This document shows, one piece after another, positions 13,684 to 32,072 of a stretch of DNA of 64,000 bases. The translations under genes and the position numbers were made by a program. This stretch comes from Nitrospirales bacterium. Lineage in GTDB: Bacteria; Nitrospirota; Nitrospiria; Nitrospirales; UBA8639. The notes under the pieces are model-generated. The model searched no databases. It saw only the letters and a program-made list of their open reading frames with translations, and had not been told where the DNA came from. The stretch covers positions 3,694,001-3,758,000 of the forward strand of contig JALDRJ010000002.1 of the NCBI GenBank assembly GCA_031315865.1, written 5' to 3'. The stretch's first letter is position 1; every line of letters begins with the position of its first letter.

Positions 13684-13769
13684 GCCTCTAGATCCTTCAT
13701 CGTGATAGAGTTTTTTTCATGACTCTCTTCTGTCGTCCTTTCCCATGCTTACGCTAGCTGTGTGCTGGG

Positions 13770-16058
13770 TCAGGAATGCGATTCGGCCAGAACCGGCTGG
13801 GCCACTTCGTCTGGACTCGCTTCCAAATCCGCATCCTCGGTGTAATCCTGCCGCACTTCCGTCAATTCAATTTCGACGGTTTCCCCCGGGGCCAGTCTCT
13901 TCAGATCCCATTCCGTAATCCACCCTTTGACGTATTCCCGCATTCTCGTGCTCGATAATCGTTCAATCGTCGGGACTTGAGGGGGATTCCATCCATAAGC
14001 CTGCGCATGGACGGACCAAATCTTCTGATAAATTTCCTCGATCCGTTTATCGTGGGGGCCCACGAGAGGAATACGTTCACATTCGATCAACTGCATTCCC
14101 TGTTCGGCTTGACGTGATAACACCAAATCAGCTTCTGAGCCCGTGTCCCGCAACTTTGCCGGCACCATTTCCCGATCACCTTTTTCATCCAAGATCGCAC
14201 TTTGAAAATCGTCAGTCAGCGCCAACACAGAGGCCAAACCTGATTTGTACCCGATATCAGCAAAGCTCGACGCCTCTAAACGTCCCATCCATCGGGCTAA
14301 TTCAGCATACGATTGCGCGCGCTGCTTGAAGGAGTAGCGTCCGATGATTTCGGCTTCGTCAATCAGCAAAATCCAGCCGGAATAGCCGGCAGCCACCATC
14401 AGACGGGAAACGAACTTCAAACGTTGCAGGGCCATTTCGGCCGAGGTCAATTTGTCAAAGCGGTACGTCATGCCCGAGTCGCAGGCTTTCACGTATCGCT
14501 TGATTTCCCCATCACTGAGCGGGTCGCCAGCCCAGAATCGAAGTATGCGATGACTCAGTTCAGGATCATTGATCATGCGTTCATACAAAAGAAGCGTTGC
14601 GGCAAACCTAGCGTCAATCTCGCCTCCCTGTCGGTTGACCCATTCGGAAAACTGTGCAAATCGCGGACTTTGAAATTGCAAGCCGCGCGTCACTTCCATG
14701 AGCGCTTCCCCACGTCTCTGAGGGATCACCGCCGACTCGATCGCAGCCCGAAACATCAAGGCGGGATTATACAGAGGAGTTTCCTTGCTGATGACGACCC
14801 GGCTCGTGACGAAGTTTTGCTCCAAGGCCATCTGTTGTAGTGATTCCAAGAGATGTGATTTCCCAGTCCCAAATCCTCCCTCCACGAGCATGCCCTTCGT
14901 GGTCCATCCCTTTTCCACACTCCCTTGAGCATCATGGAGTAACTGTTGAAATTTTGATTGGACTATGGGTTGAGGACACCCCAGGGTTTTGACCACTTCG
15001 GCATTTGGAACTCCCGATCGCAATGATTCGATCACTCGTTGCGCCTGAGCATTGCCCCCTTCTGACATGCGACGATACGAGCCCACCTCACCAGACGATG
15101 AAGACGCATTCGAAAGTCTGATCATCGGAGCAAGAGGATTCTGCCGGTACTTATCTCGCACATCGTCCAGTATGCGGAGTTTTAATGCTTCATACCGGTT
15201 CAGACCCAATCGTTGGTTCGTTAAAAATTCAAAGGGCGCGATGACCACCATCAATAAGCCTTCAATTTCATCCGTTCCATCGATAAATTGCCGCAACATC
15301 TCATAGGCGTCGAGGACCGCCGCAGGACTATAGGACAACCCCGCTCTCTCCTTCTTGACCGACCGAGACTGTACGAATGCGGAAATATCGAGAGAAACGA
15401 CAAGCCCTCGATCGCCGATTACACGAATCCAATGCGTGAGAGAGGCGAACAAGAAACGGGCATTGTTTCGTGAAACCTTTTGGAATATCAGGGCTTCTTT
15501 GAGCTTTGACAGGTACCGCAGCTCCCCGCATAACCAGGCTTTAATGGATGTCGCGAGTGTGGACGTCTCCCCTGGTGGCTCAAGCCGTGCCAGACAGAGC
15601 TGCATCATGGCGAGGCGAAATTCAAGACTCATGTGATAATCATGGAACAACGCCTGTTCCAGCCATCCGGTCAGATCACGTTTTAAATCGGCTTCTTCTC
15701 GACCATTGAGGGTCGCAAGAAAGGTCCAATGACAGTCACTGGGAGTTTCTGGAGTCTGACAGTGGTTCTGCGCGAGCAACCGTTTCAGGAACCGGTAGGC
15801 CAACGCGTCCCAATCGATTTGCCGGGCGATCTCCTGAAAGAGCAAATCGATCAATTGCACTTTCGTCGAACGGGCGTCAGCGTTCACCACGACATAGTCT
15901 TCGTGCTGGGCCATCACGCGGAGCTGAGCGGAAAACTGCGAGAGATCGGTGCCTTCAGTCCCTACTGCGAACTTCACGACCGATCCTCCATCCCGAACAT
16001 ACTGTTGGAGGTACTCTTTTTGAAGGATCGTTAACCATTCATGTGGTGACATTGCCAT
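13770..16058 (-). CDS. BrxD-like (DUF2791) tandem ATPase, paralog B
   Basis: A 762-residue paralog of the downstream gene, collinear along its whole length. The N-terminal half has GGSVVKFAVGTEGTDLSQF (P-loop lost) and GLVVSLDISAF. The C-terminal half has RVIESLRSGVPNAEVV, Walker A GGFGTGKSHLL (about 397), Walker B GWILLIDEAEI (about 566) and SSTRMREYVKGWITEWDLKRL near the end. AAGGTC precedes the ATG at 16058. The two proteins could form a hetero-oligomer with alternating active sites; that is inference. The family is linked to BREX, but the neighbourhood lacks BREX effectors, so a different role (nucleic acid remodelling, loader) remains open. Confidence 0.85.
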   Translation of the reverse strand: MAMSPHEWLTILQKEYLQQYVRDGGSVVKFAVGTEGTDLSQFSAQLRVMAQHEDYVVVNADARSTKVQLIDLLFQEIARQIDWDALAYRFLKRLLAQNHCQTPETPSDCHWTFLATLNGREEADLKRDLTGWLEQALFHDYHMSLEFRLAMMQLCLARLEPPGETSTLATSIKAWLCGELRYLSKLKEALIFQKVSRNNARFLFASLTHWIRVIGDRGLVVSLDISAFVQSRSVKKERAGLSYSPAAVLDAYEMLRQFIDGTDEIEGLLMVVIAPFEFLTNQRLGLNRYEALKLRILDDVRDKYRQNPLAPMIRLSNASSSSGEVGSYRRMSEGGNAQAQRVIESLRSGVPNAEVVKTLGCPQPIVQSKFQQLLHDAQGSVEKGWTTKGMLVEGGFGTGKSHLLESLQQMALEQNFVTSRVVISKETPLYNPALMFRAAIESAVIPQRRGEALMEVTRGLQFQSPRFAQFSEWVNRQGGEIDARFAATLLLYERMINDPELSHRILRFWAGDPLSDGEIKRYVKACDSGMTYRFDKLTSAEMALQRLKFVSRLMVAAGYSGWILLIDEAEIIGRYSFKQRAQSYAELARWMGRLEASSFADIGYKSGLASVLALTDDFQSAILDEKGDREMVPAKLRDTGSEADLVLSRQAEQGMQLIECERIPLVGPHDKRIEEIYQKIWSVHAQAYGWNPPQVPTIERLSSTRMREYVKGWITEWDLKRLAPGETVEIELTEVRQDYTEDADLEASPDEVAQPVLAESHS

Positions 16059-18305: not shown

Positions 18306-19811
18306 ATGTGGAACCTGATCAACAGACTAACAGCCTTATCTCTTATCGTACTTTTGATTGTACAAGCCGGGTGTGTCGTGACGCCGGAACGGTTAACCGA
18401 ATCTGATATCCAGGCTCGCATCACTCATGACTTGCAATATGTCACGAAAGATCAAGACCCCGTTACCGACCCCATCGACATTTTCGAAGCGATGGCTCGA
18501 GCGCTGGCCTACAACCTCGAGACGAAAGTGGAAGTCATGAAGACAATGCTCGCGCATCAACAACTCGACCTGTCTCACTATGACCTGCTCCCACAACTCG
18601 TCCTCAACAGTGGCTATGACGGCCGCAGTAACTACAGCGGAGCCACCAGCCGATCATTGTTAAGCGGACAAACCTCACTCGAACCGTCCACGTCGTCCCA
18701 GAAAAATGTTTTCACGACGGATTTAAGTCTCAGCTGGGATGTCCTCGATTTCGGCCTGTCCTACGTTCGCGCCAAACAGGCTGCGAATAATGTGCTGATC
18801 GCCGAAGAGGAACGGCGACGCGTGGCCAATCGGGTCATGCAACACGTCCGAACGACCTTCTGGCGAACAGTCAGTGCCAACCGCATGCTCGGACGGCTGG
18901 CCCTCCTCGAGGACTGGGTCACCAAGGCTTTGGACGAACTCGAGCAAGCTCAGCAACGTCGACTGGAACCCCCCCTGGCTTCCTTGCAATATCAACGAGA
19001 ATTGCTCTCGACGAAAAACGAAATTCAAAAGCTGTATCACGCGCTGTCGGTGTCTCGATTTGAACTGGCTGAACTCATGAACCTGACGCCGGGTCAGACC
19101 TACGAGCTGACGCTTGCATCACGTGAAGATCCCATTCCCACGCTCGCGCTGTCGGTGAAAGAACTGGAGCATCGCGCACTCGTACATCGGCCGGAACTTC
19201 GGACAATCGACTATCGAAAACGAATCAATGCTGAAGAAACCAAGGCCGCTCTCTTGGATATGTTACCGAACCTTAATCTTCAGTTCGGACCGAATTACAG
19301 CAGCAATAGTTTTCTGTTCAATAACCACTGGCTGTCCTACGGAGCCAAAATCAGCTGGAACCTGCTGAACGTGTTTCGAACTCCCAAACAATTCACGATC
19401 ATCGAGCTTCAGGATCAGATCCTGCACACTCAAAGTCTTGCCCTGACGATGACGGTCATGAGTCAGGTGCACGTCAGCTTGGCTCAACTCACAGCGGCCA
19501 AAACCGCCCTTCACTCAGCACGAGCCTACTTTGACACTCAAGAACATATCGAAGAACTCGTTCAGCATTCGTGGAACGCCAGACGGCAGGGTCAACGCAC
19601 GATCATTCGTGAACGACTAAACGGCATCCTCGCTGAGCTCCGTCACGAAGCCGCACGAGCGGAATATGAAACGGCCTACGCGAATCTCCTCGCGGCAATC
19701 GGGGAAGAACTCCTGCCAGAACGGATAGAGGGCCGGAAGATCTCCGAGATCGCCAATGCCTTACGGAATCAATGGGATGGCTTAAAAACATCCAATCAGG
19801 AAACGGCCTAG
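18306..19811 (+). CDS. TolC-family outer-membrane lipoprotein
   Basis: A 501-residue protein. The signal LIVLLIVQAGC ends in a lipobox-like AGC. The mature protein shows two long helical repeats with the OEP pattern: AMARALAYNLETKVEVMKTM, LSLSWDVLDFGLSYVRAKQAANN, then LVHRPELRTIDYRKRINAEETKAALLDMLPNLNLQ and ISWNLLNVF. TolC-type proteins form trimeric outer-membrane channels for type I secretion and efflux. It is the first gene of a plus-strand run with HlyD adaptors, an M50 protease and a giant surface protein, and is the likely outer-membrane exit for that substrate. Confidence 0.9.
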   Translation: MWNLINRLTALSLIVLLIVQAGCVVTPERLTESDIQARITHDLQYVTKDQDPVTDPIDIFEAMARALAYNLETKVEVMKTMLAHQQLDLSHYDLLPQLVLNSGYDGRSNYSGATSRSLLSGQTSLEPSTSSQKNVFTTDLSLSWDVLDFGLSYVRAKQAANNVLIAEEERRRVANRVMQHVRTTFWRTVSANRMLGRLALLEDWVTKALDELEQAQQRRLEPPLASLQYQRELLSTKNEIQKLYHALSVSRFELAELMNLTPGQTYELTLASREDPIPTLALSVKELEHRALVHRPELRTIDYRKRINAEETKAALLDMLPNLNLQFGPNYSSNSFLFNNHWLSYGAKISWNLLNVFRTPKQFTIIELQDQILHTQSLALTMTVMSQVHVSLAQLTAAKTALHSARAYFDTQEHIEELVQHSWNARRQGQRTIIRERLNGILAELRHEAARAEYETAYANLLAAIGEELLPERIEGRKISEIANALRNQWDGLKTSNQETA

Positions 19812-19825
19812 TCAAATTCAGCAAC

Positions 19826-20749
19826 ATGAAATCCATTATCCTACGAAGAGCGAGAACACTGGGGATGGCGACCGTGGCCATCTCATGTTTGCTCAGTCTC
19901 TCCGTCTCCGTACAAGCCAAAATCAAACCAAAATCATCACCGGCACGCGCTGAACTGAATAGTATTCGCGGCATCATCACGCCTGCAGCGGAAGCGGTAT
20001 TATCCAGTGAAATACAAGGACGCATTCAATATCTCCCGCTACGGGATGGGCAACGATTCAAGAAAAACCAGGTACTCGTCTCCTTTGAGTGCTCCAAACT
20101 CGAAGCGAATCTGGCCAGTGCCAAAGCCGAACACGAAGCCAACGTCAAAACATTGAAAAACGGGCAGCAACTATCCACGCTGCATGCGATCGGTGGACTG
20201 GAAATCGAGATCAGCCTCGCGGAGGTTAAAAAGTCTCAAGCTGCAGTGGATATTGCACAAACCGACGTGAACAACTGTGTGATCAGAGCTCCCTTCTCTG
20301 GGCGAGTCGTCAAAACGCTGGTCAATCAGTATGAGAGCGTCAATCCCTACGATCAGTTGTTGAGCATCCTGGATGATAGTCGGTATGAGATTGAACTGAT
20401 TCTCCCGTCAACCGCCTTACAATGGGTTGGAAAGGACAAGCCATTTGATTTTACCGTGGATGAGACCGGAAAGACTCACAAAGCCACAGTCGCCATACTA
20501 GGTGCGAGCATCGATCCGGTCAGCCAGACTTTCCGAATAACAGGACATTTCCTCGAAACGCCACAGGATATTCTCTCGGGAATGAGCGGCAGCGCACATT
20601 TCCCTGACCAACCAATCCCCACCACAGAATCCAATACCCAAGCCAAAGCCCAGACTAAAACCCTGTCCCAAACAAAGGCGCACAACGCCAAAAAGAACGT
20701 ATCGGGTCCGGCCGACTTGTCGCTCAAGCCCACGCGGAAACGACGATGA
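19826..20749 (+). CDS. HlyD/RND-type periplasmic adaptor
   Basis: A 307-residue protein. A signal peptide (about 1-31, RRARTLGMATVAISCLLSLSVSVQA) favours the ATG at 19826 over an upstream frame start at 19772 that overlaps the tolC-like gene. Residues about 45-85 (GIITPAAEAVLSSEIQGRIQYLPLRDGQRFKKNQVLVSF) form the first half of a biotinyl-lipoyl domain. A helical hairpin follows (AEHEANVKTL), then VNNCVIRAPFSGRVVKTLVNQYESV, and a beta-barrel with ILGASIDPVSQTFRITG. The tail is Gln/Lys/Thr-rich. The adaptor should bridge the inner-membrane components and the TolC-like channel. Confidence 0.9.
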   Translation: MKSIILRRARTLGMATVAISCLLSLSVSVQAKIKPKSSPARAELNSIRGIITPAAEAVLSSEIQGRIQYLPLRDGQRFKKNQVLVSFECSKLEANLASAKAEHEANVKTLKNGQQLSTLHAIGGLEIEISLAEVKKSQAAVDIAQTDVNNCVIRAPFSGRVVKTLVNQYESVNPYDQLLSILDDSRYEIELILPSTALQWVGKDKPFDFTVDETGKTHKATVAILGASIDPVSQTFRITGHFLETPQDILSGMSGSAHFPDQPIPTTESNTQAKAQTKTLSQTKAHNAKKNVSGPADLSLKPTRKRR

Positions 20750-20763
20750 CGACATAGGGTAGC

Positions 20764-22236
20764 ATGAGGAACGAAGAACATCGGCCGACGGCTCACTTAG
20801 GTACTACGACAGAGCTCCTTGAACCGACAGAAAACGCACCGCCTCTTTCCGCAAAAGCTGACACGGCGGCCCCACCGCCTACTTCAACATCAGGCCTCGC
20901 ATCTCTGGAATTCCAAGCCCTGTTCACGTTACTCCAGCTTGAGCCCCAGGCTCGCATGGCCCAGAGCATCAAAGAACTCCATTTCCTGGCGGTGAACGAA
21001 ACGCGGCGACTGCTTCCGTACCGACAGGCGTTCCTGTTCAAAGCCGGCGCCAACCTCAAAAGTCGCTGTCAGCTTGAAACCGCTTCCAGTGTGCCGGCCA
21101 TTCGGCGAGACGCGCCACTCACTCTGTGGCTGGAGCAGACGCTTCATGCCCTTCGCCAGAAAGAAGGTGTGCCAGAAAAACAACTATTTTCCGCGGATGA
21201 ATGTCCACCGGACCTTAAAAACGGATGGAAAGAATTTTCCTTTCCTCATGTCTTGTGGTGTCCATTCATCCTTCCCGACAAGACATTCCTAGGCGGCCTA
21301 TGGCTGGCCAAAGACACGCCCTGGCAAGACAGTGAGGCCACCATCGCCCAACGGCTGTGCGACACCTACGCTCACGCATGGGGAGCCATGGCCCGACGGA
21401 AGCGCATATCGCTCACACAGAGAACATCTCGAAAATGGCTATGGCTCGCCCTGTTCACCGGCCTGATTGCAATGGCCATCCCTGTCCGTCTGTCAACATT
21501 GGCCCCAGTCGAAATCGTCGCTCGGGAACCGGCGATCGTCAGCGCGCCCATGGATGGAATGATCGCGGAAATCCTCGTCCCTCCAAATACGCGAGTGGGG
21601 AAGGGACAAGTCATTTTTCAGTATGACGACACCGATTTACGCAGTCAGTATGAAGTCTCGGAACACAATCTCACCAAAGCCATCGCGGAATACCGCAAGG
21701 TCACACAACAGGCATTCGCAGCCGCGGAGAGCGATGCGCAAGTTCCGTTACTCAGAGCCGAAGTGCAGTTGCAGGAGACCGAACGTGATTACGCCTTGGA
21801 ACGTCTGGAACACGTCGCCGTCAAAGCCACCCAAACTGGGTTGCTTCTATACTCCGATCAATCGGACTGGGTAGGCCGTCCAATCAAGACCGGAGAGCGG
21901 ATCATGGAAATCGCCGACCCTGAAAAGATCGAATTAAAGATCGACGTCCCGGTCAACGACGCGATTGCGCTGCAGGATCGCGCAGCCATCGAAATATTCT
22001 TAGACGCAAAGCCACTGGACACCTACCCAGCGACGCTTATCCGCGCCAGCTATCAAGCCGTTGAGCTTCCCGAACACATCCTCGCATACCGCGTCATCGC
22101 GAAATTTCACCATAGGCCCTCCGACGTGCGGATCGGTTGGCGGGGCACGGCAAAAATCTACGGTGACCAAACCACCGTCTTCTTCCTGGTCTTCCGGCGA
22201 CCACTCTCAGCGATCAGGCAATACCTTGGCTGGTGA
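20764..22236 (+). CDS. GAF-domain HlyD-family membrane fusion protein
   Basis: A 490-residue protein. A Pro/Thr-rich N-terminus precedes a GAF-like cytoplasmic domain (about 55-215; ELHFLAVNETRRLLPYRQAFLF, HVLWCPFILPDKTFLGGLWLA). One transmembrane helix (about 222-242, WLWLALFTGLIAMAIPV) leads to a periplasmic adaptor with APMDGMIAEILVPPNTRVGKGQVIFQYDD, a helical hairpin, and AVKATQTGLLLYSD. A GAF sensor on a membrane fusion protein is unusual and suggests that export responds to a cytoplasmic ligand. It overlaps the next gene by one base (TGATG), indicating translational coupling with the M50 protease fusion. Confidence 0.88.
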   Translation: MRNEEHRPTAHLGTTTELLEPTENAPPLSAKADTAAPPPTSTSGLASLEFQALFTLLQLEPQARMAQSIKELHFLAVNETRRLLPYRQAFLFKAGANLKSRCQLETASSVPAIRRDAPLTLWLEQTLHALRQKEGVPEKQLFSADECPPDLKNGWKEFSFPHVLWCPFILPDKTFLGGLWLAKDTPWQDSEATIAQRLCDTYAHAWGAMARRKRISLTQRTSRKWLWLALFTGLIAMAIPVRLSTLAPVEIVAREPAIVSAPMDGMIAEILVPPNTRVGKGQVIFQYDDTDLRSQYEVSEHNLTKAIAEYRKVTQQAFAAAESDAQVPLLRAEVQLQETERDYALERLEHVAVKATQTGLLLYSDQSDWVGRPIKTGERIMEIADPEKIELKIDVPVNDAIALQDRAAIEIFLDAKPLDTYPATLIRASYQAVELPEHILAYRVIAKFHHRPSDVRIGWRGTAKIYGDQTTVFFLVFRRPLSAIRQYLGW

Positions 22237-24362
22237 TGAGTCAGGTCAACACCAGGCACTCCCCTCTCCCTCCGTTACGCGACGACTTGCACGTGATCAA
22301 GAGCATGCCGACGTTGCAGGGAGAACCAACCTGGACCATCGTTGACCCCGTTCGCAATGCCTATCTTCAGATCGGATACGGGGCCTATCAATTATTGACG
22401 CGATGGAATGCAGGAACGGTCGAGCAGCTCGTGGACAGGATCTCCTTGGAAACGTCCTGCACCATCACCAAGAAAGACGTCGAAGAATTCCTTAAATTTC
22501 TATACGCGAATCACTTGACGCAAGCCCCTATGACAGGGAGCAGTGCAACCTTTGCGGCACAGGCCGAGGCTAGGCAACAATCCTGGCTTATAGCGCTGCT
22601 CCATCAGTATCTCTTCTTCAAAATCCCGGTAATCCAACCGGATCGTTTACTGAAAATCACACTCCCCTACGTGGCTCCTCTGATGACGCCAGTCACGGCA
22701 GCCTTTGTCGCCGTTCTCGGAATTCTTGGCGTCTTCCTCGTCAGCCGTCAATGGGACGGCTTTATTCATTCCTTCCTTCATCTGTTCTCGTTAGAAGGAG
22801 TAATCGCCTTCGGGATCGCACTCTGCGGGGTCAAAGTCCTGCATGAATGCGCGCATGCGTTCACCGCCACCAAGTATGGATGCCGGGTGCACACGATGGG
22901 AATCGCATTCCTCGTCATGTTCCCTCTCTTGTATACGGACACGACAGACGCTTGGCGCCTCGCGTCCCGCCGAGAGCGGATCCTCATCGCGGCCTCGGGG
23001 ATGATCGCGGAAGTCGCATTGGCGATGTGCGCGACATTCCTCTGGAACTTTCTGCCTGACGGAATTTTCCGCAGCATTGTCTTCGTGATCGCCACGACAA
23101 GCTGGGTCATGTCGCTCACGATTAACCTGAATCCCCTGTTACGATTCGATGGATACTATGTCCTTTCGGATTTTCTCGGCATTCCCAACCTTCAACAGCG
23201 GGCGTTCGCATTCGGTCGCTGGAAACTCCGGGATGTGCTCTTCGGCCTGAACGTACCCCCTCCAGAACACACGACACCACTGCTGCGCAAGGGGCTTATC
23301 GCCTACGCCTGGAGTACATGGCTGTTCAGATTTGTTCTCCTGACGGGCATCGCCGTCCTGGTCTACCACTTTTTCTTCAAGCTTCTCGGCGTCATCTTAT
23401 TCACGGTCGAAATAGTCTGGTTCATCGTGATGCCCGTTTGCCGCGAAATCAAAGAATGGTGGAAATTCAGAGATCATATCGTGAAAACCCCTCGGGCATG
23501 GATCTCAGGAACCATTCTGGCACTCATAGTCTTGACGGCCTGCATGCCCTGGCATACGCGTGTAACCATTCCAGCTATCCTTCAAGCCGAAGACCACACC
23601 GTGATTTTCTCCCCCGCAGCTGCGCAACTGCTCGAAAGCAAGATTGACAACGGGCAGCACGTTGAACAGGGAGAAATCCTGATCCGGTTAACCTCTCCGT
23701 CGATCGAGCATGATCTCCGGCAGGCTCATGTCCGCGTGAATGCCCTGAAACGTCAGATACAGACAATCACCAGCGACCCGGACCTGTTGGCCAATACCCA
23801 CGTCCTCATCGAAACACTCGGCACCGAACTCTCGACGCTTCGCGGACTGCAGGAAATGAAAGACAATCTCCTGTTGAAAGCCCCGTTTTCCGGGGTCATC
23901 GTCGACGTTCAACAGTCTTTGCATCCCAAACGTTGGATCAATGAACAACTTCCCCTCACGCGAATCTTCAGACCGCAGACCCAAAAACTTGTGGCACTCA
24001 CATCCCAGACAGAACTGTCAAGATTACAAATCGGACAACACGCGACGTTCATTCCGGATGATCTCATGCAACCGGCGATTCAAGCCCGCATTTCAGATAT
24101 CCGCCATGTCGATGAGGAAACGCTCGTCATTCCGTACCTGGCCTCCGTCTTTGGGGGAAATATCCCCGTGCGAGAAAATGGAAAAGGAGAACTCATTCCG
24201 AAATCCGGGGTGTATCGAGTCACCCTCACGCCGCTCGAGCATCTGCCTCCAAGCAAGCAGGTAATCAAAGGCCTTATTCACGTGCAGGGCGCTCCACAGA
24301 GTCTGGCCATCCAATTCCGAGATTTTGTGGTTTCAGTCCTGGTACGGGAAATGGGATTTTAG
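22236..24362 (+). CDS. PqqD-like / M50 site-2 protease / HlyD-like fusion protein
   Basis: A 708-residue protein from the ATG at 22236 (a GTG at 22233 is also possible). Residues about 12-95 resemble a PqqD-type winged helix (WTIVDPVRNAYLQIGYGAYQ, TVEQLVDRIS), the fold that reads leader peptides in RiPP systems. Several transmembrane helices carry the zinc protease motif HECAH (203-207) and the second site NLNPLLRFDG. After further helices comes a periplasmic HlyD-like part (VIFSPAAAQLLESKIDNGQHVEQGEILIRL, LLKAPFSGVIVDVQ). M50 enzymes cleave within the membrane. Its place between two adaptors and a giant surface protein suggests that it recognises, cuts or threads that substrate. Confidence 0.9.
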   Translation: MSQVNTRHSPLPPLRDDLHVIKSMPTLQGEPTWTIVDPVRNAYLQIGYGAYQLLTRWNAGTVEQLVDRISLETSCTITKKDVEEFLKFLYANHLTQAPMTGSSATFAAQAEARQQSWLIALLHQYLFFKIPVIQPDRLLKITLPYVAPLMTPVTAAFVAVLGILGVFLVSRQWDGFIHSFLHLFSLEGVIAFGIALCGVKVLHECAHAFTATKYGCRVHTMGIAFLVMFPLLYTDTTDAWRLASRRERILIAASGMIAEVALAMCATFLWNFLPDGIFRSIVFVIATTSWVMSLTINLNPLLRFDGYYVLSDFLGIPNLQQRAFAFGRWKLRDVLFGLNVPPPEHTTPLLRKGLIAYAWSTWLFRFVLLTGIAVLVYHFFFKLLGVILFTVEIVWFIVMPVCREIKEWWKFRDHIVKTPRAWISGTILALIVLTACMPWHTRVTIPAILQAEDHTVIFSPAAAQLLESKIDNGQHVEQGEILIRLTSPSIEHDLRQAHVRVNALKRQIQTITSDPDLLANTHVLIETLGTELSTLRGLQEMKDNLLLKAPFSGVIVDVQQSLHPKRWINEQLPLTRIFRPQTQKLVALTSQTELSRLQIGQHATFIPDDLMQPAIQARISDIRHVDEETLVIPYLASVFGGNIPVRENGKGELIPKSGVYRVTLTPLEHLPPSKQVIKGLIHVQGAPQSLAIQFRDFVVSVLVREMGF

Positions 24363-24684
24363 TCTACCGCTCTAGCACACCCACCACACCGTTCGTTTTC
24401 TTTTCTGAGAACTGTTCCGTCACCGCCACCAACTTCCCTGAAACACAACAAACATGAAGCAACCAACATGGCCTCACAGAGCGTTGGTTCATAGGAAAAA
24501 TGGGAAGTCAGCCATAGGACTTTTTCTGATATTCATCAATAGATCGCAAAAAGTGGATATTTTGAGCGTCGTGGCCGATGTAGAGACTAGGGAAAATACA
24601 GCTAGAGGCCTGAATCCACACTATTTCCATGAGGCGGAGGCCTGGCATAGCCAGATAGCTCGTTTGTCTATTTTTGGATCACGC
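24363..24684. other. Region upstream of the giant surface protein
   Basis: About 320 bases. The reading frame of the surface protein is open from 24454, but the translated 77 residues lack signal-like or conserved features. The stretch may be a leader region with a promoter. Confidence 0.4.
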
Positions 24685-27600
24685 ATGAAATCATCACATT
24701 CCTCAACCTCCAGTCCAAATCGCTTCATGCAAGCATTGCTGGCCTTGGAACCACGTCTCCTGTTTGATGGCGCAGCACTCGTCACTGCCGACACGATCGT
24801 CAACGACCAAGACGTTCAGGACCAGGCCGAGGCGTCTGAGCCCAAAGAATCCGGAGAGCATGAGGGAGGACATCACCCGGCATCTGATCCGCTACTCGAG
24901 TCCTTAATCGCCTTACCAGCCAGGACCGATCGACAAGAAATCGTCTTCATCGATACCCGCGTGAATGATTACCAAACGCTCATCAAAAATATTGATCCGA
25001 ATGCCGAAATCGTGCTTTTGGATCCGACACTCGATGGGATCTGGCAAATCACGGACGCACTACGCGATCGAGAGGGCGTCGATGCACTCCATATCGTGTC
25101 GCATGGTGAACAGGCTCACCTACAAGTAGGAACCAGTTCCTTAACCATCGACTCCATGAATGGGAACTATCACGAGGCCCTCGCGACCATCGGCCAGGCT
25201 CTATCGGAGGAGGCCGATTTACTCATCTATGGCTGTAGTTTTGGCGAAGGTGAAGTAGGTCAGGCCGCCGCTGTCAGATTAGCCGAACTGACCGGAGCGG
25301 ATATCGCTGCCTCTAACGACCTCACCGGAAACGCAGAACTCGGCGGTGACTGGGACCTGGAAATTTCAACCGGCACGATTGAAACGACCGCAGTCATCGG
25401 TGAAGCCAGTCAAGCCGTATGGGAAGGCCTCCTTGCCACCTATACCGTGACGAACACGAATGATTCAGGAGCTGGTTCGTTCCGGCAAGCTATTCTGGAT
25501 GCCAATGCCAATGTGGGGACTGACACCATCGGGTTCAATATTGCAGGCGCTGGTCCACATACCATCACGCCCACCTCGGTACTGCCCAACATCACCGACA
25601 CCGTCATCATTGACGGAACGACAGAGCCGGACTTTGTGAGCACACCAGTCATCGAATTGGATGGCAGTAGCGCAGGAGCCGTCGCTGGTCTGACCTTCGC
25701 CTCGGGCAGCGATGGCAGCACGATCCAAGGATTGGTGATTAACCAATTTGAGGGGGCTGGGCTTGATCTCTCCAGCGACAATAATACGGTCCAAGGAAAC
25801 TACATCGGCCTAGACGTGACCGGCACGGCGGATTTAGGAAATGGCTTTGCCGGCATCCTCATCCAGAATGCCGCCACTGGCAACACCATCGGGGGAACAG
25901 ACGCCGCCGCACGTAACGTGATCTCAGGGAACACCAATGGCATCGTCATCCGGCATACCGGCACCTCGTCCAACACCATAGCCGGGAACTATATTGGCAC
26001 AGATTTCAACGGTGACGCGGATGTAGGGAATACCTTCGACGGCGTCTTAATCCAAAATGGGGCCACGGGCAACACTATCGGAGGCACCACAGCGGCACAT
26101 CGCAATATCCTGTCTGGAAACGATCGGGCAGGAATTCAGATCACTGGTGAAACGACGGACGGCCACACCGTACAAAACAACTATGTCGGTGTGGCAGCGG
26201 ATGGCACGACAGCTCTCGGAAATGCGAACTCTGGCATCTATATCGGCTTCGGCAGTGACGATAACATCATCGGCGGCATTGGGATGGGCAATGTAATCGG
26301 CGCCAGCGGGTTTGTCGGGCTGGAGCTAGACGGGGCAAGCTCCGGGCATATCATTCAAGGCAACTATATCGGGACTGATGCCACTGGCACGGTGAATCTC
26401 GGCAACCAGGAAAATGGCGTGCTGTTTGAAAACGGCGCATCCTCCAATCTCCTGGGCGGCGAAAACGCCGGGGAAAGCAATACCATCGCATTCAATGGCC
26501 AGGGTGGCAGCTTTACGGCTGGCATCGACGTATCGGATACCACTTCCATCGGGAATGCCTTACTAGGCAATGTCCTCTACTCAAATGTCGGGATAGGCAT
26601 TGATCTGAATAGTGGACCGCTTGGAGTCACACCCAATGACGCCGATGACGGGGACACTGGTGGCAATAATTTACAGAATTATCCGGTGCTCACGACCGTG
26701 AGTCTTAAAACCGCGAGTCAGGTTGTCATTGCGGGAACGTTCAATACGGACCTCTTGAGCCAAAATTACCGGATTGAGTTTTTTGCCAACACGACGGCTG
26801 ATGGAAGCGGCCATGGCGAAGCCGAACGGTATCTTGGGTATACGACCGTGACAACCGATGGAGCAGGGAACGCCTCCTTCAACATCACGCTGTCGGCCTC
26901 TGTCGTCGCTGGTGAATCGGTGACGGCCACGGCTACCGTGGACCTTGGCGGCGGAAGCTATGGTGACACGTCGGAATTGGCGCTCAACATGACCGCAACG
27001 AACAATGCCCCCGTGTTGACCCCGGCCAGCCCCACCCTCACATCCATTACGGAGGACGATACCAATAACAGCGGCGATTTGATTTCGGCCATCGTTACGA
27101 CTGATATTACTGACGCCGACAGCGGGGCCGTCGAAGGCATCGCTATTACCAGCGTGAATGCCAGTAACGGCACCTGGCAATACAACACCGGCTCCGGCTG
27201 GACTGACGTCGGCACGGTCAGCAATGCCTCTGCGTTGTTGTTGCGCAGCACCGACTCCTTGCGCTTCGTACCCGATGGCCAAAACGCCGATGCCGCTTCG
27301 GTGACCTATCGCGCCTGGGATCAAACCAGCGGCGCCGCCGGCAGTAAAGTCGATGTCTCCACCAACGGCGGCACCACCGCCTATAGCAGTGCCACCGATA
27401 CCGCCTCGCTCACCGTCACCGCCGTCAATGATGCCCCCGTGTTGACCCCGGCCAGCCCCACCCTCACATCCATTACGGAGGACGATACCAATAACAGCGG
27501 CGATTTGATTTCGGCCATCGTTACGACTGATATTACTGACGCCGACAGCGGGGCCGTCGAAGGCATCGCTATTACCAGCGTGAATGCCAGTAACGGCACC

Positions 27601-30501
27601 TGGCAATACAACACCGGCTCCGGCTGGACTGACGTCGGCACGGTCAGCAATGCCTCTGCGTTGTTGTTGCGCAGCACCGACTCCTTGCGCTTCGTACCCG
27701 ATGGCCAAAACGCCGATGCCGCTTCGGTGACCTATCGCGCCTGGGATCAAACCAGCGGCGCCGCCGGCAGTAAAGTCGATGTCTCCACCAACGGCGGCAC
27801 CACCGCCTATAGCAGTGCCACCGATACCGCCTCGCTCACCGTCACCGCCGTCAATGATGCCCCCGTGTTGACCCCGGCCAGCCCCACCCTCACATCCATT
27901 ACGGAGGACGATACCAATAACAGCGGCGATTTGATTTCGGCCATCGTTACGACTGATATTACTGACGCCGACAGCGGGGCCGTCGAAGGCATCGCTATTA
28001 CCAGCGTGAATGCCAGTAACGGCACCTGGCAATACAACACCGGCTCCGGCTGGACTGACGTCGGCACGGTCAGCAATGCCTCTGCGTTGTTGTTGCGCAG
28101 CACCGACTCCTTGCGCTTCGTACCCGATGGCCAAAACGCCGATGCCGCTTCGGTGACCTATCGCGCCTGGGATCAAACCAGCGGCGCCGCCGGCAGTAAA
28201 GTCGATGTCTCCACCAACGGCGGCACCACCGCCTATAGCAGTGCCACCGATACCGCCTCGCTCACCGTCACCGCCGTCAATGATGCCCCCGTGTTGACCC
28301 CGGCCAGCCCCACCCTCACATCCATTACGGAGGACGATACCAATAACAGCGGCGATTTGATTTCGGCCATCGTTACGACTGATATTACTGACGCCGACAG
28401 CGGGGCCGTCGAAGGCATCGCTATTACCAGCGTGAATGCCAGTAACGGCACCTGGCAATACAACACCGGCTCCGGCTGGACTGACGTCGGCACGGTCAGC
28501 AATGCCTCTGCGTTGTTGTTGCGCAGCACCGACTCCTTGCGCTTCGTACCCGATGGCCAAAACGCCGATGCCGCTTCGGTGACCTATCGCGCCTGGGATC
28601 AAACCAGCGGCGCCGCCGGCAGTAAAGTCGATGTCTCCACCAACGGCGGCACCACCGCCTATAGCAGTGCCACCGATACCGCCTCGCTCACCGTCACCGC
28701 CGTCAATGATGCCCCCGTGTTGACCCCGGCCAGCCCCACCCTCACATCCATTACGGAGGACGATACCAATAACAGCGGCGATTTGATTTCGGCCATCGTT
28801 ACGACTGATATTACTGACGCCGACAGCGGGGCCGTCGAAGGCATCGCTATTACCAGCGTGAATGCCAGTAACGGCACCTGGCAATACAACACCGGCTCCG
28901 GCTGGACTGACGTCGGCACGGTCAGCAATGCCTCTGCGTTGTTGTTGCGCAGCACCGACTCCTTGCGCTTCGTACCCGATGGCCAAAACGCCGATGCCGC
29001 TTCGGTGACCTATCGCGCCTGGGATCAAACCAGCGGCGCCGCCGGCAGTAAAGTCGATGTCTCCACCAACGGCGGCACCACCGCCTATAGCAGTGCCACC
29101 GATACCGCCTCGCTCACCGTCACCGCCGTCAATGATGCCCCAACGATTACCAGTGATGGCGGTGGAACCACCGCGAATGTCAATATGGTTGAAGGGAACA
29201 CAGCCGTCACGACCGTCACGGCCAGCGATGTTGATGTCCCAGTCGACGCACTGACCTACAGCTTGGTCGGTGGAGCGGACCAAGGCCTGTTTAACATCGA
29301 CGCCAATAGTGGAGCATTGGCCTTCAACACTGCGCCGGCCTTTGCGATTCCAGCAGATGTGGACATGAACAACATCTACGTCGTTCAAGTCCAGGTCAGT
29401 GACGGAAACGGCGGCACCAACATTCAAACGATCAACGCCACCGTGACCGCGGCGAATACGTCTCCAACAATCACGAGTAACGGAGGCGGGCCGACAGCCG
29501 GCATAAATATAATCGAGGGACTCACAGGCATTACGACCGTGACCGCTACAGACAATGATACAGGAGATATTCTGACCTATGGACTGGTGGGGGGGGCCGA
29601 CGCCAGTCGTTTCAGCATCAATAGCAGTACCGGAGTCCTGACATTCAACACGGCGCCTGATTTCGAAAATCCTGTTGATGCCAATCGGGATAATGTGTAC
29701 GAAGTCCAGATTCAAGTCAGCGATGGAAACGGCGGATTTGATTCTCAAACCTTGAATGTGACCGTAACCAATATCGTGGAGGCCCCCGCTCCTATTCTCG
29801 ACCCATTCCCTTCCCCTGAACCGTCAACGGATCCCACCCCGGAAACAGATTCTGCCTCCGTCTCTGAAGAACGTACGGAAGACACCGACGAGGCAACGAC
29901 TGCCCCTGCCGGAGACCAGAATCCGGGAACACCAAATCCTGTCGCACCAGCCTTCCTGGAAGAGCGGGATCAAACGAACGATCGGTTCAATCGTCACTCG
30001 GCTTCGCATTCTCACCCTGCTCACCCCCCTCAACAGCAGTTAGATGTAATGCATGTTTTGAGACCTACCGACTTTCTTCCCACGAACATATGGAATTCAG
30101 ACAACATGTCGTCCGCCCCAATGCGATCACTGGATATTGGAGGAATCGCCCCTACTGTTCCGATGGATCTCCATCTCCAGCTCGACGCTCTGGCTCAACA
30201 GTTACAAAGCACGCTCCACCATACAAATGACCAATCCGACCTCGCATCCGGTCTGGCCAGCGGCGCTGGCATGACACTCTCGGCCGGGTATATCGCCTGG
30301 TTTTTACGAGGCTCTTCCTTTTTGACGAGTCTCTTGGCCTCTGTCCCCGCTTGGGGAAACTTCGACCCGCTGCCTGTTTTGTCGGGCGGCTATACCGCGC
30401 GCAAGATTCACGAACAGCAAAACCAATCTCAAGCCGACAAAGAAAACCAAGAATTTCAAGGCATTGGTGAGATTTTTCAAGACGTAAAAAAAGACCCGTA
30501 A
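24685..30501 (+). CDS. Giant LEPR-XLL / DUF4347 surface protein with cadherin-like repeats
   Basis: The protein is 1,938 residues from the ATG at 24685; the frame is open from 24454. The ATG at 24685 is chosen because it places LALEPRLLFDGAAL (LEPR-XLL motif) at 19-32. Next come DUF4347 (about 84-235, VDALHIVSHGEQ, DLLIYGCSFGEG), a right-handed beta-helix region with GNTIGG and RNVISGN turns (about 255-630), and five identical 142-residue Ig/cadherin-type repeats. Two further cadherin-like repeats (FSINSSTGVLTFNTAPDFE) and a Pro/Glu/Thr-rich linker follow. Near the C-terminus is a hydrophobic segment, AGYIAWFLRG to WGNFDPLPVL (about 1867-1898). Such proteins are large adhesins. There is no classical signal peptide, so export probably uses the adjacent cassette. 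Confidence 0.92.
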   Translation: MKSSHSSTSSPNRFMQALLALEPRLLFDGAALVTADTIVNDQDVQDQAEASEPKESGEHEGGHHPASDPLLESLIALPARTDRQEIVFIDTRVNDYQTLIKNIDPNAEIVLLDPTLDGIWQITDALRDREGVDALHIVSHGEQAHLQVGTSSLTIDSMNGNYHEALATIGQALSEEADLLIYGCSFGEGEVGQAAAVRLAELTGADIAASNDLTGNAELGGDWDLEISTGTIETTAVIGEASQAVWEGLLATYTVTNTNDSGAGSFRQAILDANANVGTDTIGFNIAGAGPHTITPTSVLPNITDTVIIDGTTEPDFVSTPVIELDGSSAGAVAGLTFASGSDGSTIQGLVINQFEGAGLDLSSDNNTVQGNYIGLDVTGTADLGNGFAGILIQNAATGNTIGGTDAAARNVISGNTNGIVIRHTGTSSNTIAGNYIGTDFNGDADVGNTFDGVLIQNGATGNTIGGTTAAHRNILSGNDRAGIQITGETTDGHTVQNNYVGVAADGTTALGNANSGIYIGFGSDDNIIGGIGMGNVIGASGFVGLELDGASSGHIIQGNYIGTDATGTVNLGNQENGVLFENGASSNLLGGENAGESNTIAFNGQGGSFTAGIDVSDTTSIGNALLGNVLYSNVGIGIDLNSGPLGVTPNDADDGDTGGNNLQNYPVLTTVSLKTASQVVIAGTFNTDLLSQNYRIEFFANTTADGSGHGEAERYLGYTTVTTDGAGNASFNITLSASVVAGESVTATATVDLGGGSYGDTSELALNMTATNNAPVLTPASPTLTSITEDDTNNSGDLISAIVTTDITDADSGAVEGIAITSVNASNGTWQYNTGSGWTDVGTVSNASALLLRSTDSLRFVPDGQNADAASVTYRAWDQTSGAAGSKVDVSTNGGTTAYSSATDTASLTVTAVNDAPVLTPASPTLTSITEDDTNNSGDLISAIVTTDITDADSGAVEGIAITSVNASNGTWQYNTGSGWTDVGTVSNASALLLRSTDSLRFVPDGQNADAASVTYRAWDQTSGAAGSKVDVSTNGGTTAYSSATDTASLTVTAVNDAPVLTPASPTLTSITEDDTNNSGDLISAIVTTDITDADSGAVEGIAITSVNASNGTWQYNTGSGWTDVGTVSNASALLLRSTDSLRFVPDGQNADAASVTYRAWDQTSGAAGSKVDVSTNGGTTAYSSATDTASLTVTAVNDAPVLTPASPTLTSITEDDTNNSGDLISAIVTTDITDADSGAVEGIAITSVNASNGTWQYNTGSGWTDVGTVSNASALLLRSTDSLRFVPDGQNADAASVTYRAWDQTSGAAGSKVDVSTNGGTTAYSSATDTASLTVTAVNDAPVLTPASPTLTSITEDDTNNSGDLISAIVTTDITDADSGAVEGIAITSVNASNGTWQYNTGSGWTDVGTVSNASALLLRSTDSLRFVPDGQNADAASVTYRAWDQTSGAAGSKVDVSTNGGTTAYSSATDTASLTVTAVNDAPTITSDGGGTTANVNMVEGNTAVTTVTASDVDVPVDALTYSLVGGADQGLFNIDANSGALAFNTAPAFAIPADVDMNNIYVVQVQVSDGNGGTNIQTINATVTAANTSPTITSNGGGPTAGINIIEGLTGITTVTATDNDTGDILTYGLVGGADASRFSINSSTGVLTFNTAPDFENPVDANRDNVYEVQIQVSDGNGGFDSQTLNVTVTNIVEAPAPILDPFPSPEPSTDPTPETDSASVSEERTEDTDEATTAPAGDQNPGTPNPVAPAFLEERDQTNDRFNRHSASHSHPAHPPQQQLDVMHVLRPTDFLPTNIWNSDNMSSAPMRSLDIGGIAPTVPMDLHLQLDALAQQLQSTLHHTNDQSDLASGLASGAGMTLSAGYIAWFLRGSSFLTSLLASVPAWGNFDPLPVLSGGYTARKIHEQQNQSQADKENQEFQGIGEIFQDVKKDP
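27007..29136 (+). repeat. Five tandem copies of a 426-bp coding repeat
   Basis: Copies begin at 27007, 27433, 27859, 28285 and 28711, each 426 bp (142 codons, APVLTPASPTL to TVTAVND). By eye the copies are identical at nucleotide level, including synonymous positions. This points to very recent amplification or gene conversion. The true copy number may vary between cells, and an assembly could have collapsed or expanded it. Confidence 0.97.
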
Positions 30502-30530
30502 TCCTCCCATCATTCGGACTCTGATCTAGT

Positions 30531-32072
30531 ATGCGACTGCCTCCACTCATTGCCATCAGTATTGGCTTGGTTTCCTTAACCGTCACGACGATGCTGCTGG
30601 GCAATACCGTATTTTCCGTGGCGCCGGACGAGCGCCAACAACTCTTCGCCTACCGCCAAACACTCTCGGAGTCCCTCGCCGTTCAATACACAGCGCTCGC
30701 CAGTCAAGATGAGTTTGAGACCATTGAATTTGCCATGAATCAACTCGTCGCCCGCACCGACGATATCGTGTCGGCGGCCTTAGTTTCCATCAATGGAGCT
30801 ACGCTGGCGGCCACAACAGCGCACCACCAAGCCTGGTCTCCACAAAAAAAAGACGAATCAACATTGGAGCATATGCAAGTCCCTATTTTCCAAGGATTGG
30901 CGAAGTGGGGAGTACTTCAGATTCGGTTTCGATCCAAACACGAGTATGGACTCCTGGCATGGGTCTCGACGCGATGGATTGGTTATCTGACGTTCGTCGC
31001 CATACTTGGCTTCTTGGCCTACTGGCTCTTCATGAAACGCACATTGCGGCACCTTGACCCATCCTCCGTGATTCCGAAACGTGTGAAGGCCGCATTGGAC
31101 AATCTCGAGGAAGGCGTGGTGATCCTTGACAACCAAGATCGCATTCTCCTCACCAATACGGCATTCGTTCGGCAATCAGGAAAACAGATGTCTAATTTGC
31201 TGGGAATCAAATTGACCGAATTGCCATGGCTGATCAGCAAAGACCAGATGATGGAAGAACATTCCTGGGTGACCGCCCGACAGGAGAATTGCCCACAAAC
31301 AGGATTTCCCGGCTTGCTGGCTCATGCTGAAAAGGAGGAAGTCAGAAAATTTCTGATCAACAGTTCGCCAATCACTGATGATCATGGACAGGTCACCGGC
31401 GTGCTCGTCTCCTTCAATGATGTCACCGAATTGGATGAAGCCAACGCTCAGCTCATGGACGCGCTCAAAGATTTGCACGAGAGCCGTACTGAAATCATCA
31501 AGAAAAACGAGGAACTCGAACATTTGGCGACTCGCGATCCCTTGACAGGATGCTGGAACCGCCGGGCATTTTTCGAACGATTGGAGAAAACCTACGTCAA
31601 CGCGAAGCACAACGATCTGTCCCTCAGTTGTATCATGACGGATATCGATCATTTCAAATCCTTTAACGACCGGTATGGTCATGCTCTCGGAGATCAAGTA
31701 ATACAGGTGTTCGTCAAAACACTGATTGAATGTCTCAGACCATCGGACATCATCGGGCGGTACGGAGGGGAAGAATTTTGCGTGATTTTACCCAACACCG
31801 ATCTCACAGGAGCTCAGGAAATCGCTGAACGCATGCGCCGCAGGGTTGAGACTGAAAGTGGCACAAAAATCCGGACTACGTCTCAGCTTTCGATTACGTC
31901 GAGTTTTGGCGTCGCGACGATCGGACCGGCGATGATTGATCCATTGGAACTGCTTGATATGGCGGATAAAGCCCTGTATGAAGCCAAAGAGGGCGGGCGG
32001 AATCAGGTTGGGTTCTGGGACACTCAGATGAACGAACCGAAACTGAACTCGGCAGCCGTATTCACACGGTAA
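30531..32072 (+). CDS. Membrane diguanylate cyclase (PAS-GGDEF)
   Basis: A 513-residue protein. Two transmembrane helices (about 5-25 and 145-165) flank a small periplasmic domain. A PAS domain follows (about 187-300, ALDNLEEGVVILDNQDRILLTN), then a short coiled coil, then GGDEF (about 340-500) with TRDPLTGCWNRRAF, DIDHFKSFNDRYGH and active site GGEEF. RPSD five residues before GGEEF fits the inhibitory I-site (RxxD), so product inhibition is likely. It makes cyclic di-GMP and follows the giant adhesin by 29 bases on the same strand, suggesting that it tunes adhesin production or retention. The link is inferred from position. Confidence 0.95.
   Translation: MRLPPLIAISIGLVSLTVTTMLLGNTVFSVAPDERQQLFAYRQTLSESLAVQYTALASQDEFETIEFAMNQLVARTDDIVSAALVSINGATLAATTAHHQAWSPQKKDESTLEHMQVPIFQGLAKWGVLQIRFRSKHEYGLLAWVSTRWIGYLTFVAILGFLAYWLFMKRTLRHLDPSSVIPKRVKAALDNLEEGVVILDNQDRILLTNTAFVRQSGKQMSNLLGIKLTELPWLISKDQMMEEHSWVTARQENCPQTGFPGLLAHAEKEEVRKFLINSSPITDDHGQVTGVLVSFNDVTELDEANAQLMDALKDLHESRTEIIKKNEELEHLATRDPLTGCWNRRAFFERLEKTYVNAKHNDLSLSCIMTDIDHFKSFNDRYGHALGDQVIQVFVKTLIECLRPSDIIGRYGGEEFCVILPNTDLTGAQEIAERMRRRVETESGTKIRTTSQLSITSSFGVATIGPAMIDPLELLDMADKALYEAKEGGRNQVGFWDTQMNEPKLNSAAVFTR

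Follow-up and report, generated by a model that had tools for sequence, protein, structure and literature searches.

How do giant surface proteins leave a Gram-negative cell when they lack a classical signal peptide and no ATP-binding cassette (ABC) transporter is encoded beside them? Giant repeat proteins play major roles at the cell surface and in biofilms, and type I ABC systems are usually credited with exporting them. The question is raised by a locus of a Nitrospirales bacterium (assembly GCA_031315865.1; 3.78 Mb in two contigs, 98% complete) that lies in a window of 64,000 nucleotides of contig JALDRJ010000002.1 (positions 3,694,001 to 3,758,000; all coordinates below are those of the window, and those of the cassette genes and their features refer to its plus strand). 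Here, six genes at 18306-32072, all on one strand, encode a TolC-like outer-membrane factor (OEP), a HlyD adaptor, a GAF-HlyD adaptor, a fusion of an M50 protease with a HlyD adaptor (M50-HlyD), a giant LEPR/DUF4347 protein and a GGDEF protein. The initial annotation had listed these genes, their places and their common strand, and Pfam and NCBIfam searches recovered every one of them (Pfam families OEP, HlyD_3, Peptidase_M50, DUF4347, cadherin/Big domains and GGDEF). We think it somewhat probable that the first four genes (18306-24362) constitute a dedicated trans-envelope exporter for giants carrying an N-terminal tag of the form LExRxx[FLY]DxA, with a Sec-type motor as the most likely source of drive.

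The four genes of the putative exporter overlap or lie a few bases apart. The first (18306-19811) encodes a TolC-like outer-membrane factor of 501 residues with a hydrophobic N-terminus (PF02321, E 2.3e-33), and it is overlapped by 40 bp by the gene for a periplasmic adaptor of the HlyD/resistance-nodulation-division (RND) type (19772-20749; PF13437, TIGR01730 above cut-off), which has a hydrophobic segment of the signal-peptide type at residues 29-47 and for which an alternative later start near 19826 is possible. The GAF-HlyD adaptor (20764-22236) consists of a GAF-like N-terminal domain (approximately 20764-21438), one transmembrane segment (21439-21495, residues 226-244) and a HlyD domain matching HlyD_3. 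The fourth gene (22233-24362), which overlaps the third by 4 bp and starts with GTG directly followed by ATG, encodes the 709-residue fusion of a PqqD-like domain, an M50 site-2 protease and a HlyD adaptor, as judged by Peptidase_M50 and HlyD_3 profiles and an AlphaFold model. The giant that follows (24685-30501), the putative exported substrate, has 1,938 residues and Big/cadherin repeats by Pfam and NCBIfam, and matches the LEPR-8K/LEPR-XLL family (NF012209) with 20 bits against a cut-off of 17. Its likely start is the ATG at 24685, with the LEPR motif then at residue 21; an in-frame ATG upstream, at 24454, would give a protein of 2,015 residues. None of the cassette genes of the window encodes an ABC protein.

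The gene arrangement is far beyond chance because it recurs across phyla. Among 84,980 species genomes scanned, at least 587 relatives turned up, and the loci analysed here are those of the best 80 of them, which come from Nitrospirota and from alpha-, beta-, gamma- and sulfate-reducing proteobacterial lineages. In nearly all of the 30 loci of the window's type (type 1) from its own order, the series OEP, HlyD, GAF-HlyD and M50-HlyD adjoins a LEPR/DUF4347 giant. Among the 68 loci with enough upstream DNA, GAF-HlyD is present in 65, HlyD in 64, OEP in 54 and all three in 52; a same-strand ABC gene of exporter size was found in one of 68 type-1 loci and a SecA-like gene in none, and a giant open reading frame (ORF) accompanies 43 of the 48 long loci. 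The proposal of an ABC-free cassette for LEPR giants, as made in the initial annotation, thus finds the cross-species association that it predicted: across 197 genomes of the order, type-1 M50-HlyD and DUF4347 occur together in 76, M50-HlyD alone in 4, DUF4347 alone in 1 and neither in 116, counts that include shared ancestry, and DUF4347 is found in 35 of the 39 cassette genomes outside the order that were reached via genome-contig loci.

The same gene order, with the giant in front, is found on plasmids of Azospirillum, Niveispirillum, Burkholderia anthina, Kosakonia, Citrobacter and E. coli. Exporter DNA is present in 24 of 5,426 complete E. coli genomes, where it is mostly plasmid-borne. 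Plasmids of E. coli and Citrobacter, as well as a few E. coli chromosomes (L114, L110 and the 24 genomes), carry the exporter together with a giant of 4,459 residues that has the tag LESRQLFDGA; within E. coli the sequences are near-identical. Small proteins of the phage tail-collar type lie near the cassette in several proteobacteria (L104, L108, L173, L176, L181, L185, L187, L194); at least one has a signal-peptide-like start, and Kosakonia has three copies.

The proposed export tag of the window's giant is the motif LEPRLLFDGA (24745-24774). Its residues L21, E22, R24 and D28 are invariant in 68 giants, A30 is nearly so, and in most cases an alanine-rich stretch and a threonine come next. 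Of 67 giants, 66 match the strict pattern, and 1,286 other ORFs of at least 300 residues yielded no match. These 67-68 giants had been picked by N-terminal similarity, and the tag was therefore also sought in an independent set selected by DUF4347 alone, where 26 of 28 carry it. The cassette-linked giant of Pectobacterium aroidearum carries the tag but not DUF4347, and so it looks as if the tag is what the giants have in common. The same species (L207) encodes a DUF4347 giant with the tag LESRVLFDGA about 250 kb from the cassette, which means that orphan substrates exist. The tag does not resemble a Sec signal: the median of the best 11-residue hydrophobicity is 1.41 for the tag region, the same as for the cytoplasmic start of GAF-HlyD, versus 2.39 for HlyD and 2.50 for OEP. 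By this sole criterion a classical Sec signal peptide on the giant is ruled out, in agreement with what had been noted at first.

If the tag is a signal, M50-HlyD is the candidate that would read and process it. The zinc site HECAH, of the HExxH form (22842-22856), and the second active-site motif NLNPLLRFDGY (23124-23156) are both kept in 51 of 51 relatives, a set that covers both cassette types (the second is described below); in a type-1 set of 68, the former is invariant, as are N298, D306, G307 and Y308 of the latter. The two motifs, HExxH and N(x)2P(x)4DG, are situated in the membrane domain, where the model puts long helices over the hydrophobic stretch. The retention of catalytic motifs across relatives suggests that the protease activity is under selection. 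The AlphaFold model (predicted local distance difference test score 87) comprises a β3-α3 N-terminal domain, a helical membrane part and a HlyD adaptor; the latter matches MacA, MexA and EmrA with Z of 14-17, and all matches from the fold search of the whole model concern this HlyD part. The N-terminal domain (residues 10-100; 22260-22532) appears similar to PqqD and to RiPP (ribosomally synthesized and post-translationally modified peptide) recognition elements, judging from the model and from weak matches to PqqD, lasso-PqqD and WgkC. PqqD-type families are its sole recurrent matches among relatives, and a PDB sequence search with this domain gave no match. Of the domain calls made initially, the GAF one holds across the family, with PF01590 matching 9 of 36 relatives (best E 2.4e-6), while the PqqD-like one is weak by sequence, with 16.6 bits against the Pfam cut-off of 23.4. 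The nearest M50 profile is that of the daptide maturation protease (NF041824; E 9e-44, 150/300 bits, under the equivalog cut-off), and the M50 part is also related to epipeptide proteases.

What could drive the export is suggested by a second M50-HlyD family, approximately 25% identical to the first, which is found in sister cassettes of Nitrospira and gammaproteobacteria (L060-L069, L195-L197). The order GAF-HlyD, M50-HlyD, SecA-like ATPase, HlyD is present in 13 of 13 such loci and is in most of them followed by OEP, and an extra SecA_DEAD match was found in all 22 sister-cassette genomes of the order. The SecA-like proteins have the DEAD domain, the preprotein-binding domain and part of the P-loop domain, with nucleotide-binding motifs intact in most; SecA_SW (wing/scaffold) and SEC-C, which are present in the housekeeping SecA, are absent from them, and the protein of L197 is more divergent, with a match to the DEAD domain only. 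Proteins with LEPRLLLSA or LEARVLLAG motifs lie beside several sister cassettes. The sister cassette may be the more revealing of the two systems.

Because sister cassettes carry a SecA-like ATPase, we infer that a Sec-type motor drives the whole exporter family; one branch would encode it within the cassette, and the other would rely on that of the cell. This last step is the weakest link of the scheme. According to the scheme, the tag would be read in the cytoplasm by the inner-membrane M50-HlyD via its PqqD-like domain, perhaps together with the GAF domain of GAF-HlyD. A Sec-type motor, which would be the single housekeeping SecA in the window genome and the dedicated SecA-like ATPase in sister cassettes, would then push the chain across the inner membrane. 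The M50 active site, given the conservation of its catalytic motifs, may cut the leader or a membrane-held segment. Finally, as fold and gene order suggest, M50-HlyD, GAF-HlyD and the periplasmic HlyD would form an adaptor collar leading to the TolC-like channel, through which the giant would reach the surface.

Several observations weigh against this scheme. The type-1 cassettes lack a motor gene, and a second strong SecA_DEAD gene is absent from 37 of the 41 cassette genomes examined, so that the step powered by the housekeeping motor is an analogy. A dedicated SecA encoded elsewhere in the window genome was considered and rejected, as this genome has one real SecA and its second match, at 20.5 bits, is sub-cut-off. 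In hydrophobicity the tag region does not exceed a cytoplasmic N-terminus, which argues against ordinary targeting to SecYEG. The PqqD match stays under its cut-off, the co-occurrence counts contain shared ancestry, and the genome-contig loci represent the best 80 of at least 587 relatives.

Some of these observations would be explained if the complex of M50-HlyD and GAF-HlyD itself formed an inner-membrane channel without Sec, powered by the proton gradient, by an unlinked ATPase or by extracellular folding or Ca2+ binding. The type-1 cassettes without a dedicated ATPase, the absence of extra SecA genes from most cassette genomes and a tag unlike a hydrophobic Sec signal all fit such a channel, but the SecA-like motor in every one of the sister cassettes does not, and we know of no M50 protein that conducts polypeptides. 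We consider this arrangement unlikely, though it comes next after the Sec-driven exporter. Still less likely is a processing and release module, in which the giants would cross the inner membrane via Sec or another route and be cut by M50, and the TolC/HlyD part would export a fragment or a small partner. It draws on the kinship of the M50 part with the daptide and epipeptide proteases and on the caspase-like DUF4347, which would fit self-cleavage; however, the giants lack a classical signal peptide, and the channel and adaptors are linked to the cassette nearly as tightly as the protease.

Export of the giant by a conventional type I ABC transporter from another locus, with the cassette only modifying or anchoring it, appears very improbable: an LssB-like ABC (E<=1e-140) is present in 52 of the 80 cassette genomes of the order, and a type I ABC gene lies near one sister cassette (L066) and one plasmid cassette (L111), but the other 28 genomes, closed ones among them, lack the LssB-like protein, and PF00664 and NCBIfam models recognise no type I ABC exporter in the window genome. 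Its four ABC_membrane proteins are MsbA, above its cut-off, and three half-size proteins; all four fall under the cut-offs of TIGR01846, TIGR03375 and TIGR01842, the half-size ones far under, and a canonical type I ABC acting in trans is thus rejected for this genome.

The cassette shares with type I secretion (HlyB/HlyD/TolC and the exporters of LapA-type adhesins) the TolC-like channel, the HlyD adaptor and an adjacent gene for a giant repeat-rich protein, here the putative substrate, but it differs in having no ABC protein in the cassette, in the N-terminal LExRxxFDxA tag and in the M50 fusion and GAF-HlyD that occupy the inner-membrane place. With the tripartite pumps (AcrAB, MacAB and EmrAB with TolC) it has in common the adaptor fold and the outer-membrane factor, whereas its composition of OEP, HlyD, GAF-HlyD and M50-HlyD includes no ABC, RND or major facilitator superfamily (MFS) transporter. 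A 2021 review of tripartite systems, in its accessible part, names ABC, RND and MFS proteins as the inner-membrane parts (PMC8277102). We do not file the cassette under type I systems or tripartite pumps because a search for an ABC (or RND/MFS) component found none. The M50 proteases of daptide and epipeptide (YydH/LiaK) RiPP pathways are the nearest M50 profile family, and the PqqD-like N-terminal domain may be a further common feature; the cassette protease, in contrast, carries a HlyD fusion, and its linked genes encode TolC and proteins of 1,200-5,900 residues instead of small peptides. The SecA2 accessory translocases share the DEAD, preprotein-binding and partial P-loop domains with the SecA-like proteins of sister cassettes, which differ in lacking SecA_SW or SEC-C, in their linkage to M50-HlyD and in their absence from the window cassette.

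Among described giant proteins, the Big proteins RSP and RSP2 of IncHI plasmids are likewise giant, Ig-like, secreted and plasmid-encoded in enterobacteria, but they are exported by a conjugative type IV secretion system (PMC8730810), and we reject them as members of the same system on account of this route. Pseudoalteromonas BapP and the DDxP proteins were rejected as prior descriptions since both papers invoke ABC-based type I systems. In the open literature we found no paper on the export of LEPR-XLL or DUF4347 proteins, and no system joining an M50/site-2 protease with HlyD and TolC is described in the 5.39 million open papers searched, a scope that leaves most subscription papers outside.

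The cassette looks like a widespread and apparently undescribed export machine. If export is confirmed, it would be a categorically new system; if it only processes Sec-exported giants, it would be a novel variant of known parts. The chances appear about even that it represents a new class of Gram-negative secretion system, TolC-dependent and ABC-free, with a core made of an intramembrane-protease/adaptor fusion and a GAF-adaptor that reads a LExRxxFDxA/LEPRLLxA tag, and with a SecA devoid of the wing/scaffold driving one branch directly. Such a system would be a separate route of giant export with at least 587 related loci, including those of nitrifiers, plant-associated bacteria and E. coli plasmids, and it would explain how many LEPR/DUF4347 proteins exit without a signal peptide and would bring intramembrane proteases and SecA-type motors into trans-envelope export. 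The spread of the cassette into genetically tractable hosts makes the question of export directly testable.

The DUF4347 domain of the giant (24940-25434; PF14252, E 1.8e-53) has in its model the caspase/CHAT-like fold of clan CD peptidases, with His-Gly and Tyr-Gly-Cys motifs. Its core (approximately residues 81-210) is confidently modelled and matches Tce1 (9qpe_G) with Z of 12.9 and SAVED-CHAT with Z of 8.6, as well as Craspase CHAT proteins; most other matches have Z below 8 and are not decisive alone. The window's giant has both the His and the Cys, and the dyad is not universal among the 68 giants examined: Cys is present in 66 and His in 50, with Glu replacing His in 16 that belong to one clade. 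DUF4347 is thus perhaps a self-cleaving protease in many giants, not in all. Tce1, a type VI secretion effector of Pseudomonas aeruginosa, is the closest solved fold, but it is a small Hcp-delivered protein and no LEPR giant. PA0256 has been noted to contain DUF4347 (PMC8262886), and by our inference PA0256 is Tce1.

The sixth gene of the locus (30531-32072) encodes a membrane-anchored PAS-GGDEF diguanylate cyclase (GGDEF by Pfam) with an intact GGEEF motif and an RxxD I-site. The initial annotation had assigned control of the cassette to cyclic di-GMP. As a general feature, this control was not borne out and is rejected: a same-strand GGDEF gene accompanies 10 of 30 Nitrospirota loci versus 2 of 68 others, and the cyclase is a lineage-specific neighbour, not a part of the core.

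The hydrophobic region near the end of the window's giant, also pointed out at first, is indeed present (LSAGYIAWFLRG...AWGNFDPLPVL, 30277-30381) and is conserved in Nitrospirota giants, but it is not a general trait, as the W.LR..DPLPVL motif is essentially confined to Nitrospirota giants and one Nitrosomonas metagenome-assembled genome (L159). Other proteobacterial giants (L104-L190) often end in F/L-S/T-x-Q-L/I/V followed by a short helix-like tail resembling LLAAL, and this motif may act as a further signal for sorting or docking. The giant gene also contains five perfect tandem repeats of 426 bp (27005-29141; 100% matches) that encode Ig/cadherin-like units of 142 residues, and their identity suggests a very recent amplification or homogenisation. 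Opposite the repeat array, on the minus strand (26671-29748), there is an open frame of 1,025 residues, probably a repeat artefact. An Rfam search of the window returned tRNA only, and promoter and terminator scans gave matches no more frequent than in shuffles. Outside the cassette, and without an obvious complete BREX system, two neighbouring paralogous genes for BrxC/BrxD-type ATPases (782 and 762 residues) lie at 11335-16058.

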